Shown here piece by piece: positions 28,999 through 47,171 of a stretch of DNA of 64,000 nucleotides (position 1 is the first letter of the stretch; each line of letters begins with the position of its first letter). The translations under genes were made by a program, and so were the position numbers. The stretch comes from Burkholderiaceae bacterium. GTDB taxonomy: Bacteria > Pseudomonadota > Gammaproteobacteria > Burkholderiales > Burkholderiaceae_E. The stretch spans positions 112,653 through 176,652 of the forward strand of contig JAJTYR010000001.1 in assembly GCA_021463505.1 (NCBI GenBank). Reading direction: 5' to 3'. Under the pieces are notes generated by a model. It saw only the letters and a list, made by a program, of their open reading frames with translations, was not told where the DNA came from and searched no databases.

Positions 28999-30896
28999 CG
29001 CGCTGGGCTCCGTGACAGCTCGCCGTTGCGCGGTACGGCGCCGCGCGGGCAGGGCACCGAGACTTCGAGCCGGGTTCCGCCCGATGCGCCTGGCCCGATC
29101 GACCAGTGGCCGCCGAGCAGCCGCGTGCGTTCGTCGATCGACACGATCCCGAGTCCGCCGCTTCCGGCGGCGGGGTCGGCGCGATCTCCCGTTCCGACGC
29201 CGTCGTCTTCGATCGTGAGCCGGACCCACCCGTTGCGGCACGTGAAGTGCGCGGTGCAGTGCGTTGCGTCGGCGTGCCGAACGACGTTGCTCAAGCCCTC
29301 CTGCGCGATCCGGTACAGGTGCAGTCCGGTTTCGCCGGCCGGTTCGTCGGCGACGATGTCGAACGTCGCGGTGCAACGCACCGTCGTGTCGCGGTTCATC
29401 GCTTCGACCAGTGACTCGAGCGCCCCGCGCCAGCCGAGGTGGTCGAAGGTCGCCGGGTGGATCGCGCGCGAGATGCGCCGGATGCCGTCGAGGACGTCGG
29501 TGGCGTCGTCCAGTGCGTCGCCAACCGAGGCCTGGCCCGCGAAGCCCTGGCGTGCCGCGTCCTGTCTCAGCAGGTACAGGCGGTTGATCAGGAACAGCAG
29601 GCGCTGCCCGACGCTGTCGTGCAGATCCTGCGCGAAGCGTTGGCGCTCGATGTCCTGCGCGCGCAGGATGCGCGCGCTCGCGTCGCGCCGCGCGTCCAGC
29701 AGCGCCGCGTCGGCGGCGCGCCGATCCACCTCGGCGCCGCGCATCCGTGCCGCGAGCACCAGCGAGAACAGCAGCGCCTCGAGCGCGAGGAACGCGCCGA
29801 ACGCGTGGTCTGGCAGGCCGGGCGTTCCGGCCGCGGTGAGACGTTGCAGTGCCGCGGTTCCCACGGCCGGCAGCATCGCCAACAGGAACGGCAGGCTGAG
29901 CAGCCTCGCGTTGCGGTCGCCACGTACCACCCCGTGCGTCAGGGCGACGACGATGGTCGCCAGCGTGAGCACGCCGACGACCAGCAGCGCGTGGCGCCCG
30001 ACGTGGTACGGGCCGACGATCCCGGCGAGCCACGCGAGCGGGGCCAGCGCGACCGGCGCGAGCAGGGCGCGCAGCCACGCCCGGTGCGTGTCGCCACGCG
30101 CCAGTTGCTCGCGCACCATCAGCGCGCCGCTTGCGTTGCCGATGGCCATCGCGAGGTTCATCGCCTGGTCGCCCAGTGCCGGCCACTGTGGCCAGACGTA
30201 CAGCGGGCCGTAGCCGGCGAGGTACACCGCGATCACGATCATCGACAGGATCGTGATCGCGTTGAGCAGGAACACGCGGTCACGGATCAGCGTCGATACC
30301 GCCAGGTTGTAGCCAACGATCGCGAGGACGAAACCGAGCAGCAACAGGTCGACGTTCAGGCGCCGCGTCTGCAGCACGGCGTATTCGCCGCTGGCGTGCC
30401 GCTCGAAGCGCAGCACGGCGAACGACGGCTGCTCCACGTGCAGGTAGACCGGTCCGTTGTCGGCGACCTCCGGCACCGGCAGCGCCATCTCCGGCACCGC
30501 GAGCGTGCGCCCCCCGGGGCTCACGTGGTCGCCGGTGACCGAGGTCTCCCAGCGTCCGCTCGTACGGTCGCGCCAGTACAGCGTGGCGCGATCGACCACC
30601 GGCCTGATCGTGAGCACTGCACCGGCCAACGGTGCGTCGATGCGCAGCCACTGCGGACTGGAGTGTGGGCCGACGGCGACCGTCGCGAGCGCCGCGCCGT
30701 CGAAGCGCGCCGGCGGCGCGGTGCAGCAGGCGGAGACGTCGGTGACATCGTTGACACCGACGACCCCGACGCGCACTTCGAGTGCGGCGCCTGCAGTCGC
30801 GACGCCGGGGATCGCGGCAGCGGCGACGACCCCGCAGCCGGTCAGCGCGTGTGCGAGCGCGCTGCGCCGCGAGCGGCACCGGGGCACGCGGCGCAC
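28995..30896 (-). CDS. sensor histidine kinase, 7TMR-DISM type
   Basis: About 633 residues from GTG 30896, which begins a basic and then hydrophobic export signal; GTG 30914 is an alternative. An extracytoplasmic 7TMR-DISM-like domain (ATLYWRDRTSGRWE) is followed by about seven membrane helices. Then come a HisKA_3 dimerisation domain with the phospho-histidine in DLHDSVGQRL and a HATPase domain (EGLSNVVRHADATH, DDGVGTG, GGLGI). Small-ligand sensing outside the cell, perhaps carbohydrate-related, is typical of such receptors. It drives the NarL-type regulator next to it. Confidence 0.87.
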   Translation of the reverse strand: MRRVPRCRSRRSALAHALTGCGVVAAAAIPGVATAGAALEVRVGVVGVNDVTDVSACCTAPPARFDGAALATVAVGPHSSPQWLRIDAPLAGAVLTIRPVVDRATLYWRDRTSGRWETSVTGDHVSPGGRTLAVPEMALPVPEVADNGPVYLHVEQPSFAVLRFERHASGEYAVLQTRRLNVDLLLLGFVLAIVGYNLAVSTLIRDRVFLLNAITILSMIVIAVYLAGYGPLYVWPQWPALGDQAMNLAMAIGNASGALMVREQLARGDTHRAWLRALLAPVALAPLAWLAGIVGPYHVGRHALLVVGVLTLATIVVALTHGVVRGDRNARLLSLPFLLAMLPAVGTAALQRLTAAGTPGLPDHAFGAFLALEALLFSLVLAARMRGAEVDRRAADAALLDARRDASARILRAQDIERQRFAQDLHDSVGQRLLFLINRLYLLRQDAARQGFAGQASVGDALDDATDVLDGIRRISRAIHPATFDHLGWRGALESLVEAMNRDTTVRCTATFDIVADEPAGETGLHLYRIAQEGLSNVVRHADATHCTAHFTCRNGWVRLTIEDDGVGTGDRADPAAGSGGLGIVSIDERTRLLGGHWSIGPGASGGTRLEVSVPCPRGAVPRNGELSRSPAR

Positions 30897-32784: not shown

Positions 32785-33201
32785 ATGGCCGGTTCTGCTC
32801 ACGCCAATCCGTCACCCACCCGCGTCGTCGTCCATCAGGGCTCGCGCGTCCTCGAGATCGAGTTCGCCGACGGCAAGCTGTTCCGCCTGCCGTTCGAGTT
32901 CCTGCGCGTGTATTCGCCGTCGGCCGAGGTGCGCGGCCACGGACCCGGTCAGGAGAACCTGCAGACCGGCAAGGCCGACGTCGGCATCGCCTCGGTCGAA
33001 CCGGTCGGTCACTACGCGCTCCAGCCCACGTTCACCGACGGCCACGCCACCGGCATCTACGCGTGGGAATACCTCCACTGGCTCGGCGACAACCAGGACG
33101 AGTTGTGGCAGCAGTACCTGGCACGGCTCGAAGCGGCCGGCGCGAGCCGGCACGCGCCGGCCCCGATCCAGGCGAGCGCCGCGAAACGACCGAAGCACTG
33201 A
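32785..33201 (+). CDS. DUF971 domain protein
   Basis: A 138-residue protein with the gamma-butyrobetaine-hydroxylase-like N-terminal fold (DUF971): [20 protein letters not shown] and [28 protein letters not shown]. The C-terminal 25 residues are an Ala/Pro/Lys tail. Stand-alone DUF971 proteins are often encoded next to ubiE, as here, where only 14 bases intervene. A role in Fe-S cluster handling has been proposed for relatives; function here is not proven. Confidence 0.88.
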
Positions 33202-41638: not shown

Positions 41639-43042
41639 TTGAAGCTGGCGCTCGGGGTTCGCCAGGTCCAGGCCGCGCGTCCGGTGCATCGTGTGCCGGC
41701 GTTCACGACGGTGTCGATGGCGTTGCTGATGATGTCGGTCGACTCGACGATCGTCGCGACCGCGCTCGGCTCCCTGCAGCACGGGCTCGGCACGACGATC
41801 AACTGGGCCGCGTGGACCATCACCGCCTATGCGCTGGGCTTCGTGCTGATGCTGCCGATCAGCGGCAAGCTCAGCGAGCGCTACGGCCGCCGCAGGGTGT
41901 TCCTGGGTTCGGTCGTCGCGTTCACGGCCGCGTCGCTGTGCTGCGGGCTGGCCGAAGACATCTACGTGCTGATCGCGCTGCGCGCGGTGCAGGCGGCCGG
42001 CGGCGCGGGCTTCACGCCGTCGGCCACCGGGATCATCGTCGATCACTTCGGCGACGCGCGCGATCGTGCGGTGAGTCTGTTCGGCAGCATTTTCCCGATC
42101 GGCGCGATGATCGGACCGGTTTTCGGCGGCCTGTTCGTGACGTACTGGAGCTGGCGCGGCGTGTTCTTCGTCAACGTGCCGATCGGGCTGGCGATCATCG
42201 CGATGGCGTCGCGCTACATTCCGCCCGACCCTCCGCGGGCGAATGCAACCCGTGGCGGGATGGACGCGCCGGGAATGGCATTGCTCGGTGCTGCGCTGCT
42301 CGGCGGCATGCTCGCCGCCAGCTACCTGGGCGAAGGCCATGCGACACTGTGGTCGCCGGCGTTCGTGCTGCCCGCACTCGTCACGGTGCTGGCCCTGCGG
42401 ATGTTCTTCGGCCACATCGCGCGTCGCGCGGATCCGTTCGTCGCGCCGCGCCTGATCCGCGGGCCGGGCTTCGGTGCCGTCAACCTGGTCAACCTGTCTT
42501 ACGGTGGCATCACCCACGGCGTGGTGACGCTGCTGCCGCTCTACGCGGCCAACCGCTACGGCATCGACGCGCTCGGCGCCGGCACGCTGCTGATCGCGCA
42601 AGGGCTCGCCGCGATCGCACTCTCCGTCATTGCCGCTCTGGCGCTGCGCCGCACCGGGCACCGGCTGCCGCTGTACGCCGGCGCAAGCGTCATCGCGGTC
42701 GGGTTACTCCTGCTCGCCGTCGAACCGCCGGACGGCGTGACGCCGTACACCTGGCTCGCCGGGGCTGCATTCCTGGTCGGGGCCGGGCGCGGGGCCATCA
42801 ACCCGGCCAGCCGCAACGCCGGGTTGCAACTGGCGCCCGAGCACTCCTCGACGCTCGCCGCGCTGCGCACCGCGTCCCTGCAGATCGGGGCGATCACTAC
42901 GGTGTCGGTCGTCACGGCGATCCTCGCCCGTTCCCCCGACCCCGGCGGCGTCCAGGGCTGGGTCTACGCCGTCATCGCCGTGCTGCTCGTTGCTGCCCTG
43001 CCGCTGATCACCCGCGTGCCGGAGCACCGTGGCTCGTGGTGA
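41639..43042 (+). CDS. MFS transporter, DHA2 (EmrB/QacA) family
   Basis: A 467-residue membrane protein from TTG 41639; the start is uncertain. The first helix has the motif MSVDSTIVATALGSL (motif D1 of 14-helix drug exporters), then WTITAYALGFVLMLPISGKL and the motif A-like GKLSERYGRRRVF. Number of helices looks like 12-14. Drug or metabolite export by proton exchange is expected. Downstream lies a decayed TctC fragment, so the gene borders the decayed region. Confidence 0.87.
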   Translation: MKLALGVRQVQAARPVHRVPAFTTVSMALLMMSVDSTIVATALGSLQHGLGTTINWAAWTITAYALGFVLMLPISGKLSERYGRRRVFLGSVVAFTAASLCCGLAEDIYVLIALRAVQAAGGAGFTPSATGIIVDHFGDARDRAVSLFGSIFPIGAMIGPVFGGLFVTYWSWRGVFFVNVPIGLAIIAMASRYIPPDPPRANATRGGMDAPGMALLGAALLGGMLAASYLGEGHATLWSPAFVLPALVTVLALRMFFGHIARRADPFVAPRLIRGPGFGAVNLVNLSYGGITHGVVTLLPLYAANRYGIDALGAGTLLIAQGLAAIALSVIAALALRRTGHRLPLYAGASVIAVGLLLLAVEPPDGVTPYTWLAGAAFLVGAGRGAINPASRNAGLQLAPEHSSTLAALRTASLQIGAITTVSVVTAILARSPDPGGVQGWVYAVIAVLLVAALPLITRVPEHRGSW

Positions 43043-43059
43043 CCCGATCGTTGCGGCCT

Positions 43060-43388
43060 GCGCGCGGGTTGCGGGCGGCGGAGCTGGCGCCGTCGCGCCT
43101 GCCGCAGTTGCCGGACGTACCGACGGCTACCGAGGCTGGTTTCCCGGGTATCGACGGCAGCGTCTGGCACGGTTCGTCGTACCCGCCGGCACCCCGCGAG
43201 AGATCGTCCTGAAGCTCGACGATGCCGCACAAGAGGCGCTGGCCGACAAGGAGGTGTTCGCCGGCCTGGTCAACAAGAACGCACTCGTCATCGAAGGCGG
43301 GCTGCCTGAACGGCTCGCGGCGGTGATCCACGACGACCTGGCCAAGTGGTCACGGATGGTGAAGATGACGGGCTTCAAGCCGGATTGA
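43060..43388 (+). pseudogene. C-terminal remnant of a TctC/Bug-family solute-binding protein
   Basis: One frame encodes LPDVPTATEAGFPGIDGSVWHG, a clear motif of tripartite tricarboxylate transporter receptors. The next part of the same family, FVVPAGTPREIVLKLDDAAQ, continues in another frame up to GFKPD and the stop. The break is at about 43170 and a single-base indel would restore it. About two thirds of the gene (the N-terminal part) is missing, so it is a remnant. The start is approximate. Confidence 0.8.
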
Positions 43389-43575
43389 AGCGGATTAGGG
43401 CCTGTCGCGCTGCACGCAGTGGCCGCTGCCGCCCATGAGCTGCAACGTGGTGGCACCGGTGAGCTGCAGCCAGTCCTGCTGGCTGCGCCGGTGCATTGCG
43501 GCGAAGGCGCCGCGTCGGGGGAGCGAGTAGGCGGGGTCACGGTGCGCGGCGCGCCCGAAACGGCGCGAGCTCACG

Positions 43576-43869
43576 ATGGTGCGTGCGTGGACGCCGCTCG
43601 GGTGTCCGCCTGCGTGGAGGTGGACACTTCCCCATGCGCCTGGCGAAACCCGGTCGGGAGAGCGCTTCCGGAGGTTGCTGCGGGCACCCGGCCGTGCACG
43701 CCACTGGCAACGCCTGCTGGACGAGCAACGGGCAGCATCGGTGGCAGGGATCGCCGAAGCCGAAGGCATGGACGTGGCGCAAGCACGCCGCGTAATACGG
43801 CGGACCCTGTTGGCCCCGGCGGTCATCGAACCGTTGGTGGGGCGCCCGGCATTGTGCTGGAGCGGGTGA
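43576..43869 (+). pseudogene. fragment of a resolvase-associated HTH protein
   Basis: Residues from about 43690 read RHWQRLLDEQRAASVAGIAEAEG, then RRVIRRTLLAPAVIEPLV. This follows the C-terminal pattern of small HTH proteins encoded with site-specific recombinases, often written as RWRKLLDEG...IAEAE...YVSRVLRLTLLAPDIVEAIL. The upstream half has no similarity that I see, and the motif is degraded, so a remnant is more likely than a working gene. The rest of 43389-43916 holds no convincing gene. Confidence 0.4.
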
Positions 43870-43916
43870 TGTGCCGCCTCTGGCTCAGCCATCGGGGCGC
43901 ACAGACACACGCACCA

Positions 43917-44378
43917 TCAGACGCTATCGGAGGCTGGGCGTTTCGGCACCAGTCGGCCAGCCAGACGCAGCCCGTCACGCATGTTCAGCGCCAGCAGCGT
44001 GACGTTGACGGCACCGGCCACCAACTCGAGCGCCTGCAGTGTGTAGAACGCGCGATCGAATTGCCCGGCGTTCGCCCAGGACGCAAGCCCCCAGGCACTG
44101 GGCAGCAGCACCAGCAGTCCGTTGGCGGCGACGACCTTCATCCGGCGCCCTTTGACATCGACAAGCCGCCCACGACGTGCACTCGCCAGCGAAAACCCGC
44201 TGCCGCCCGTGGCGGCCATTGCCGGAATCAACACCCACATGCCGGTCAGTATCGCGTTCTTGACAAAGGTCACACTGCCCTGATCCAGGAATAGCTCGGA
44301 TACGACCGTGGCCACCCAAAAAGTGACGATGCACACAAGCGCCACAGATCCGAAAAATCCGTGCAGCTTCGATTTCAT
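43917..44378 (-). CDS. four-helix membrane protein in a marR operon
   Basis: A 153-residue protein from ATG 44378 with four predicted membrane helices (GSVALVCIVTFWVATVVSELF, NAILTGMWVLIPAMAATGGSG, further ones at about 90 and 120). No enzyme motif is seen. Its ATG overlaps the marR stop as ATGA, so it is translated together with the regulator and is probably the function that the regulator controls. Confidence 0.75.
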   Translation of the reverse strand: MKSKLHGFFGSVALVCIVTFWVATVVSELFLDQGSVTFVKNAILTGMWVLIPAMAATGGSGFSLASARRGRLVDVKGRRMKVVAANGLLVLLPSAWGLASWANAGQFDRAFYTLQALELVAGAVNVTLLALNMRDGLRLAGRLVPKRPASDSV

Positions 44379-44869
44379 GACTTGATCTCCGGGGAAGGAA
44401 CAACGGTCTGCAACTGGAGCTGGATGGATTCGAGCGTTTGCGTCGCAGCGAGCGCCTGGGCGGCCGGGGTCGCCTTGGCCAGCTCGGCTGCTGTGGCAAC
44501 CCACATCGCATCGGCCTGGCGGTACAAGGCCAGGCCCTGCGGCGTCAATGCGTAGAACGGGGAGCGGCGGTGCGCGGGGTTCGACCGTGTCTCGACCAAG
44601 CCCTGCTCGAGCAACAGGTTCAGCTGCTTCTGCGCGCCTTGCCGTGTCACGCCCATGGCCTCGCCGATCAGGGGCGCTGTCAGCGGCATCTGCGCCAGCG
44701 CAATGGCTCCAAGCATTTGCCAACGGGCACTGGTCAGACCCAGTGGCTCGACCAGGCGGTCGCCCCAGTGCAACAGCAGCCCGTTGAGGCGAAACACGGT
44801 CAGCGCGAGTTCGGTGATGGCTGCAGTCCCGGGGGTTGCTGCGGGTGCGGTGACGGCTCTTTTCTTCAT
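44375..44869 (-). CDS. MarR family transcriptional regulator
   Basis: A 164-residue regulator from ATG 44869. The winged-helix core includes LTSARWQMLGAIAL, PLTAPLIGEAMGVTRQGAQKQL and the wing region LVETRSNPAHRRSPFYALTP. It should repress its own operon and release DNA on binding a small ligand. An almost perfect palindrome lies directly upstream. Local base composition looks less GC-rich than the flanks, and the operon sits between mobile-element remnants, which suggests transfer. Confidence 0.92.
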   Translation of the reverse strand: MKKRAVTAPAATPGTAAITELALTVFRLNGLLLHWGDRLVEPLGLTSARWQMLGAIALAQMPLTAPLIGEAMGVTRQGAQKQLNLLLEQGLVETRSNPAHRRSPFYALTPQGLALYRQADAMWVATAAELAKATPAAQALAATQTLESIQLQLQTVVPSPEIKS

Positions 44870-44871
44870 GG

Positions 44872-44905
44872 CAACCAGTTTCCAATAATGGAAACCGGTT
44901 GTCAA
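44872..44905 (-). promoter_or_regulatory. MarR operator palindrome overlapping a -35 box
   Basis: CAACCAGTTTCCA and TGGAAACCGGTTG are arms of 13 bases with one mismatch, separated by ATAA (44872-44901). The palindrome ends two bases from the marR ATG. On the minus strand TTGACA (44905-44900) overlaps its outer edge, so a bound protein would block the promoter. No good -10 is seen within the arms. Confidence 0.75.
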
Positions 44906-44949
44906 GTGATCCGTTCCGAGGACTGAATCGAAATCACGTCGGCAGAGGC

Positions 44950-45300
44950 GCGAATTGCGACGACCAGCAGCTGGCTGTTCCCGGCGACGATGGGTACGCC
45001 TGACGAGCCCCGGCGGCTGTCGCGGCGGAGCTACGCTGCAGCCTTGTGTTTCGGGGGCCGGAAGTCGCCCTTCGGCGGTGTACTCGGCGAGCATGCGAGG
45101 CCCGTGCAGAATCGCCAGCGTCGCGTCGGCTCTGCGCAGCACCACGACCTTGGCTTTCACGTAGTGACAGCGGTGGCGATCGGCCGGAATCTGCAGCTTC
45201 ATCGCCGCGAAGCTCACGCAGTTGTCCTTGCCCACCGTGCGCTCGAAACGCGCGCACAGGATGTCTCGCAGCGGTGGGCCGACCCAGGCCACGAAGGCGC
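44950..45300 (-). mobile_element. C-terminal remnant of an ISNCY-type transposase
   Basis: The minus-strand frame reads FVAWVGPPLRDILCARFERT, VGKDNCVSF, LQIPADRHRCHYVKAKV and LAILHGPRMLAEYTAEGRL. This is the C-terminal pattern of ISNCY transposases (LRDILC...ER.VG.DN...LQIP...HYVKA.V...LA.FHGPR.LA.Y). The N-terminal catalytic part is missing. It is joined at about 45300 to a piece of a different IS. Left limit approximate. Confidence 0.7.
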
Positions 45301-45707
45301 TGCCGTTCGCGCTTCACCGCCGTGCAGCTTCGGCACTGAACGCGGCGAACTTCGAGTTCGAGGTCGATGCGGGTGTCGCCACAGGACAGGTCCCGTGCGC
45401 GTCGGGTTCGCCGGTCGTACCAGCCCATCTGCGCCCGGCCGCAGCAGCCACAGAGCGTTTTTCCGAGCGCCGCACAAGGGTGATGACACGCGTCCTTGGA
45501 TCACTGAAGACACCGCGCACCGTGGAGAGCGGACGAAAACCCGGGAAGCGATACGCATCCCGGAGCGGCCGCTGTCGCTCGAGGGCAGTAGCCATGCCAA
45601 CATGTGCGCAGTTTCCAGCCCTCTCGAAAACCCCGAAGGTTCTCTGTCCACAAGGCTTCGCAGGCGATTCATGCCTTCATTTCACCCACACGACTTCCTG
45701 AAGACCG
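45300..45707 (-). mobile_element. N-terminal remnant of an ISL3-type transposase with one IS end
   Basis: From ATG 45595 the frame runs RFPGFRPLSTVRGVF to ITLVRRSEKRS, then shifts near 45445 to CGCCGRAQMGWYDRR, RARDLSCGDTRIDLELEVRR and VQCRSCTAVKRE, where it stops matching. That is the zinc-binding N terminus of ISL3 transposases. GGTCTTCAGGAAGTCGTGTG at 45707 resembles an ISL3 terminal repeat. The rest of the transposase and the other end are lost. Confidence 0.7.
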
Positions 45708-45723
45708 AGGAATCCATGCGCAT

Positions 45724-45958
45724 GCACTGGCGCAGGTGCTGAACATGCAGGACTTCGCGCGCCGCTTCGTGGTCACGGTCGACCGCCGGCCGCGCGAGTG
45801 GATTCAGGCTGGTGCAGCCGAAGGTTCATTACCGGTTCGCCGATCCGCTGCTCGAGAAACGGTCGGCGGGGCGCAAGATCATGATCCGCATCGGCCCCGA
45901 GCACGCAGCGCAAATGAAGAAGGCCTTGCGCGCGCTGCGCGCCGAACTGGTGCGCTAG
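45724..45958 (+). pseudogene. internally deleted duplicate of the DUF3014 gene
   Basis: The sequence follows the intact gene at 39310-40173 nearly base for base in two blocks: parent 39658-39738 (GTGCTGAACATGCAGGAC...) and parent 40022 to its stop. About 282 parental bases between GATTC and GGCTGGTGCAG are absent. An extra base at the join shifts the frame. The 5' 350 bases of the parent are missing too; similarity begins 17 bases beyond the ISL3 end. It cannot make the parental protein. Confidence 0.88.
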
Positions 45959-46114
45959 CGCGTCGCTCGCGTTCGCGGCAGCGACCCGAGGCTTGCGCCG
46001 ACTCGGTTGCAAGCCGGTTGCCTCGATCCGGACCAACGGCAACCGGCGGCATCGACGCCCGTGCGCGCAACGGGACGAGCCGCACTTCCGCAATCTGCGC
46101 GACAGGAGATCCCC

Positions 46115-46756
46115 ATGAGATTCGGCGTGCCTCGATCGACGTTCCTGGCGCTTGCGCTGGTGGCTGGCGCGGCTCTTGCACAGCAATCGTCGCAACCGTC
46201 GCAGCCAGCGCCGGGCACGCCTCCGCCCGCCGGGTACCGGATGGGACCGGGAATGATGGGCTACGGTCCCGGCTACGGCCCGGGGGGTGGTTACGGCTAC
46301 CGGATGGGCCCCGGGATGATGGGTGGCTACGGTCCCGGCTATGGCATGGGGCCGGGGATGATGGGCGGCTACGGCCCGGGCTTCGGAATGGGCTTCGGGA
46401 TGATGGGCGGCCACGGCATGATGGGCCCGGGCATCGGCCGCGCGCTCTGGGCGCTCGACCTCGACGATGCGCAGCGCAAGCAGGTGCTCGCGATCCAGGA
46501 CGACCTGCGCAGGAAGCACTGGGAACTCGCGGGCAAGGCGCAGGAAGAAATGGCGAGCCTGCGTGACGCCTGGCTGGCGCCCAGGCGCGACCGCGCCGCG
46601 ATCCTGGCCGGCTACAAGCGGCTGGGCGAATTGCGCCAGCAGTCGCTCGAGCAGTCGCTCGACGCCGCCGACCGCCTCGACAAGGTCCTCACCGAGCAGC
46701 AGCGCGAGCAGCTCAGGCGCTCGGGACCGTGGTGGCTCGACCGCGACGGCCAATGA
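46115..46756 (+). CDS. Spy/CpxP-like periplasmic protein with Gly/Met-rich repeats
   Basis: A 213-residue protein from ATG 46115, preceded by GGAGATCCCC. A signal peptide (residues 1-22, ending ALAQ) is followed by repeats of the type GPGMMGGYGPGYGM to about residue 108, and a helical domain (ALDLDDAQRKQVLAIQDDLR) resembling Spy/CpxP/ZraP proteins. Methionine clusters could bind Cu(I) or other soft metals; this is inference. The next gene encodes a SHOCT protein, a frequent companion in metal-response loci. Confidence 0.75.
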   Translation: MRFGVPRSTFLALALVAGAALAQQSSQPSQPAPGTPPPAGYRMGPGMMGYGPGYGPGGGYGYRMGPGMMGGYGPGYGMGPGMMGGYGPGFGMGFGMMGGHGMMGPGIGRALWALDLDDAQRKQVLAIQDDLRRKHWELAGKAQEEMASLRDAWLAPRRDRAAILAGYKRLGELRQQSLEQSLDAADRLDKVLTEQQREQLRRSGPWWLDRDGQ

Positions 46757-46828
46757 TCTGCCGGCGGCTGGCTCCCACACCCGGTCGCCCGGCCCGCCCG
46801 CGGCATTCGATCTCGGGGAGATCCCGAC

Positions 46829-47092
46829 ATGTGGCACGGAATGGACGGCTGGGGTTGGGGCTGGACCTGGGGCATCGGCATGGTCCACGGCCTGCTGTGG
46901 TGGATCTTCGTCATCCTCGGGATCGTGCTGCTGGTGCGCCTGCTCGCGCGCGGTGGAGGAGGCGGCGCGGCGCCACCGTCACCGCCGCCTGCGCCAGCCG
47001 AGACCGCGCTCGACATCCTGAAGAAGCGCTACGCGCGCGGCGAGATCGACAAGGCGGAGTTCGAGGAGAAGCGGCGCGACCTGCAGGCGTGA
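46829..47092 (+). CDS. SHOCT domain membrane protein
   Basis: An 87-residue protein with a Trp/Gly-rich start (MWHGMDGWGWGW), one membrane helix (residues 17-41) and a C-terminal SHOCT motif, ALDILKKRYARGEIDKAEFEEKRRDL. Function unknown; SHOCT parts are thought to mediate oligomerisation. It follows the Spy-like gene after 72 bases. Confidence 0.88.
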   Translation: MWHGMDGWGWGWTWGIGMVHGLLWWIFVILGIVLLVRLLARGGGGGAAPPSPPPAPAETALDILKKRYARGEIDKAEFEEKRRDLQA

Positions 47093-47095
47093 GGA

Positions 47096-47171
<76 letters not shown>

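Follow-up and report, generated by a model that had tools for sequence, protein, structure and literature searches.

The palindromic element directly before a marR-family gene of a Burkholderiaceae bacterium very probably serves the adjacent MarR-family repressor as its autoregulatory operator, controlling an operon of marR and a membrane-protein gene; this attribution is drawn from sequence comparison. The element probably comprises two MarR-dimer sites 20 bp apart and extends from a −35-like TTGACA through the marR start codon. The window, that is, the whole stretch of DNA analysed, is 64,000 nucleotides long; the features of the element and of the operon are listed below in window coordinates.

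44375..44869, minus strand: predicted marR-family autoregulator (P0001), 164 aa, with PF12802 and MarR relatives in the PDB
43917..44378, minus strand: four-helix membrane protein P0002, 153 aa, with predicted helices; its start overlaps the marR stop as ATGA
44869..44904, minus strand: full putative operator, 36 bp, TGACAACCGGTTTCCATTATTGGAAACTGGTTGCCA, with 16-bp arms, two mismatches and a 4-bp loop
44872..44901, no strand assigned: core palindrome of the original prediction, with 13-bp arms and one mismatch
44888..44905, minus strand: distal MarR-dimer sub-site (inferred), TTGACAACCGGTTTCCAT, with a perfect outer and a degenerate inner half-site
44868..44885, minus strand: proximal MarR-dimer sub-site (inferred), the second register of the matrix scan, symmetrical with the distal one
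44900..44905, minus strand: TTGACA, a perfect −35-like hexamer that doubles as the outer half-site and at which the conserved block of the orthologues starts

The original prediction described a palindrome with 13-base arms and one mismatch, AT-rich within a GC-rich genome, overlapping TTGACA, at a distance of two bases from the start codon in a MarR–membrane protein operon. All of this was confirmed. The core palindrome, CAACCAGTTTCCA-ATAA-TGGAAACCGGTTG, has a 4-bp loop and is separated by two bases from the marR ATG (44867–44869, minus strand); its GC content is 43% versus 69.7% for the window. The range originally given ends at 44905 because the TGTCAA at 44900–44905 (TTGACA on the minus strand) overlaps the palindrome. 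A wider symmetry reaches into the start codon, taking in its first base, and the conserved block around the palindrome is 36–38 bp long (44868–44905). The exact palindrome word occurs once in the window and once in the 3.58-Mb genome. Three distinct places in the window, the core palindrome included, have arms of 13 bp or more with no more than one mismatch, and Markov-shuffled windows contain 0–9 matches of equal quality. Palindromicity by itself is thus weak evidence, and it is conservation that decides. Two more long palindromes are present in the window, at 30228–30261 and 33135–33162.

The consensus before marR orthologues is TTGACAACYRGTTnCC-N6-GGnAACYRGTTGTCA, and the element is kept upstream of most orthologues with 50–75% identity (down to about 50%). 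The DNA preceding the element is unrelated among these orthologues, and the position of the ATG after the element is identical in a set of seven distinct close relatives that includes the window. The operator, marR and the membrane-protein gene are all present in a contig from a viral collection (L072). Whole genomes were searched with the 36-bp pattern, allowing up to three mismatches, in a family sample of 74 and an order sample of 399 genomes. The operator was found in four family genomes, exactly the four that possess the regulator. In the order sample, the nine genomes with the operator are all among the 11 regulator-positive ones, and none of the 388 regulator-negative genomes has it (Fisher p about 1e-16). 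Of all the evidence for the element as the predicted site of the regulator, this co-occurrence across genomes weighs most. A search for further copies, proposed together with the original prediction, gave one site per genome in the 11 genomes tested and zero for a reversed control pattern, so the regulon would be local.

The two regulator-positive order genomes that lack the long operator contain, respectively, only degenerate remnants (G385) and a divergent gene layout with a short-type site (G302). The membrane-protein homologue of G385 (locus L067) has two in-frame TAA stops and, with the degenerate operator, is apparently part of a decaying copy of the module. At another locus (L101:3454-3984, minus strand), a marR gene has the same operator as in the window and stands before the gene of a different multi-helix membrane protein, which resembles the DUF2269 type by eye.

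In more distant relatives, often divergently arranged, palindromes of 18 bp, TTGACA-N6-TGTCAA, stand between the genes or ahead of them; 14 such sites were counted in 96 kb of the relatives' loci versus none in 20 shuffles. The recognition helix reads RQGAQKQLN in the long-operator group and NRQNVQRIVN in the short-site group, so the relatives form a natural series of matching changes in recognition helix and operator. The original assignment of the palindrome to the adjacent MarR is upheld by this co-variation, by cross-species conservation and by co-occurrence with the regulator, but the extent had to be revised from 30 bp to 36–38 bp running into the start codon. A matrix was built from distant relatives' short sites chosen by eye and applied to the long operators. 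On nearly every one of them, register 0 scored best and register 20 next, with the centre far lower; registers 0 and 20 amount to one observation rather than two because register 20 follows by symmetry, and there are fewer independent observations behind the two-dimer reading than it seems. In the window, the best register is the distal sub-site; the proximal sub-site, centred 20 bp from it, overlaps the marR start codon. Single relatives point the same way. Locus L055 retains a complete 18-bp distal site in the same layout, with the symmetry of the whole palindrome lost, L138 has a complete 18-bp site in the layout of L055, and L046 has two complete 18-bp sites 19 bp apart. By the symmetry of the sites, MarR is predicted to bind each of them as a dimer.

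With one MarR dimer bound in the middle of the 30-bp palindrome (TTTCC-N6-GGAAA), as on a single ordinary operator, the outer TTGACA/TGTCA would be conserved as promoter or flank; such an arrangement agrees with the good conservation of the central GGAAAC half-sites in the close group. The matrix of the relatives, however, rejects the central register, the long operator has nothing in common with the distant relatives' sites except its outer half-sites, and L055 keeps its distal site without the whole-palindrome symmetry. In addition, 36 bp exceeds the usual cover of one MarR dimer. A single central dimer is considered unlikely, and the original notion of a 13-bp-arm operator, whose palindrome is real, is better read as two dimer sites.

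The palindrome would fold into a stem of 13 bp and a 4-nt loop immediately ahead of the start codon and could also act in RNA, as an attenuator or terminator hairpin in the marR leader. This is very improbable and was rejected: there is no terminator call on the marR strand, the 18-bp sites of the relatives lack a loop and are unable to form such a hairpin, and L055 has lost the long-range pairing while its distal site is complete. Least probable, to the point of being negligible, is an inverted repeat that marks the end of a mobile element or has arisen by chance in a GC-rich genome. Shuffled windows do yield palindromes of equal quality and the neighbouring DNA contains an ISL3 transposase remnant, but the element is present in a single copy per genome, occurs only with the regulator and is locked to marR starts across unrelated genomes, and this reading was rejected as well.

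The assignment of P0001 to the MarR family is confirmed by its winged-helix domain (PF12802, 53.2 bits with a cut-off of 27, E = 3e-14). The protein contains no cysteine, nor do several orthologues; a thiol switch of the OhrR type is therefore unlikely, and a bound ligand is expected. There is no clear Shine–Dalgarno sequence at the marR start. A scan for promoters came back empty. The candidate −10 hexamer GAAACT (44877–44882) matches the consensus at three of six positions, and in the candidate layout, TTGACA-N17-GAAACT-N7-ATG, transcription would start at the ATG. Given the 3/6 match and the empty scan, the promoter position and the leaderless start are a guess; a leaderless marR mRNA is conceivable, at somewhat less than an even chance.

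According to the proposed mechanism, two MarR dimers would sit next to each other on the same side of the double helix, their centres being about two helical turns apart. The bound repressor would cover the DNA from TTGACA to the marR start codon and exclude RNA polymerase from a single promoter, which is predicted to serve both marR and the translationally coupled membrane-protein gene. Such promoter occlusion by bound MarR is likely. A small ligand, possibly quinone-like or another aromatic or redox-active compound, may release MarR and switch both genes on, although this step is only weakly indicated. The regulator–operator pair is defined precisely enough for direct testing.

P0002 starts 8 nt downstream of a GGAG. 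The original view of it as a four-helix membrane protein of no known function stands: searches of Pfam and NCBIfam with P0002 and 40 relatives gave scattered weak matches, none above the curated cut-off, and a PDB sequence search with P0002 gave no relative. A match to SLT_beta (E = 0.15) was dismissed as noise. The AF2 model, with a pLDDT of 52 at first and 72.6 when one diverged relative was included, is a plain four-helix bundle, for which Foldseek returned generic helical bundles only, none at E ≤ 0.001. Relatives of P0002 are encoded in 33 of 399 sampled phylum genomes. A MarR gene lies within 1.5 kb in 21 of the 29 membrane-protein loci of this sample and is absent from that distance in the other eight. 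Pairing of the two genes extends from alpha- to gammaproteobacteria, which supports the compact regulator–output module originally proposed. Near-invariant residues across 55 homologues are H6, E28, K40, K76, R79, M80, N86, Q115 and E118. Three relatives are extended at the C-terminus by an FAD/NAD(P)H reductase domain (PF00175, FNR-like):

L022:3989-5149: fusion of a P0002-family protein with an FNR-like reductase
L023:3989-5149: fusion of the same type
L031:781-1926: fusion of the same type

In genome G244 (L138:1500-2973), the operator precedes an extra, ABM-family monooxygenase-like gene and lies about 410 bp from the marR start; marR is followed by a cytochrome b561 replacing P0002. ABM-like genes recur at other loci. 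Because of the reductase fusions, the b561 replacement and the recurring ABM-like genes, P0002 may have a membrane redox role, at a chance just short of even, possibly with quinones or aromatics as partners. Judging from the fusions and replacements, the output protein would most likely be an electron-handling membrane component whose partner is an FNR-type NAD(P)H reductase. A combined scheme, in which a MarR-controlled four-helix membrane redox family is supplied with electrons by an FNR-type NAD(P)H reductase, in some species fused to it, and reduces or detoxifies the quinone-like or aromatic compounds sensed by MarR, with a two-dimer operator that includes a leaderless start codon, is speculative and, taken as a whole, rather unlikely. 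The P0002 family is widespread and unnamed; its near-invariant residues, the reductase fusion and the predicted MarR control offer leads for assays.

The DNA around the module is variable:

43042–47094: variable segment with syntenic DNA on both sides, bounded on the right by the 3′ end of tRNA-Phe
44937–45428, minus strand: ISL3-family transposase remnant (Zn_ribbon_ISL3, just below the cut-off), directly upstream of the operator

In a comparison with genome G067, synteny holds for the left flank (an MFS transporter) and, from 47094 on, for the right flank, but G067 has other DNA in place of 43.04–47.09 kb. The 3′ end of the tRNA-Phe gene (47096–47171, minus strand) forms the right boundary both in the window and in G067 (L115). 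The suggestion that the module is probably mobile is partly supported, by its patchy distribution, plasmid-borne relatives, the viral-collection contig, the variable tRNA-Phe region and the ISL3 remnant; against it, no intact mobilisation gene was seen, and a search for an att-like repeat of the tRNA-Phe end found none. Other features of the surrounding DNA are a C-terminal TctC/Bug receptor fragment after the MFS gene (43029–43388, plus strand), apparently a truncated gene; an LTXXQ-family protein gene with tandem 42-nt repeats encoding Gly-Met-Tyr-rich segments (46007–46756, plus strand); and an ORF with a THAP4-like heme-binding β-barrel domain (PF08768; 40541–41596, plus strand).

No description of the operator sequence or of the pairing of marR with the membrane-protein gene was found in the open-access papers searched, and searches of the open literature yielded nothing relevant on the motif, on DUF2269 with MarR or on leaderless MarR operators. 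The operator would represent MarR autoregulation of a known type, and the paired membrane-protein family is uncharacterised. Autorepressed operons such as those of MarR, MexR and MhqR resemble the predicted operon in having a winged-helix repressor, a palindromic operator over its own promoter and an adjacent target; unlike them, the present system has a single-copy putative operator of 36–38 bp reaching the start codon. P0001 is related by sequence to SCO3205 (PDB 4b8x, E = 5e-6), also a MarR regulator. The SCO3205 operators were predicted from conserved upstream regions as two intergenic sites and then confirmed by SPR (PMC3737563); the same ortholog-footprint approach was used here. The two SCO3205 sites are separate, one each before sco3204 and sco3205, whereas both sub-sites described here form one symmetric element before one operon. 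The element would work like the operator of QacR, a TetR-family protein that binds one long palindrome as a dimer of dimers (PMC6018408), the two dimers on two sub-sites being deduced here from sequence. QacR belongs to a different protein family, of which the present MarR is not a member, and its dimers sit on opposite faces of the helix at sites that overlap, whereas the MarR dimers, with centres 20 bp apart, are predicted to lie on the same face.
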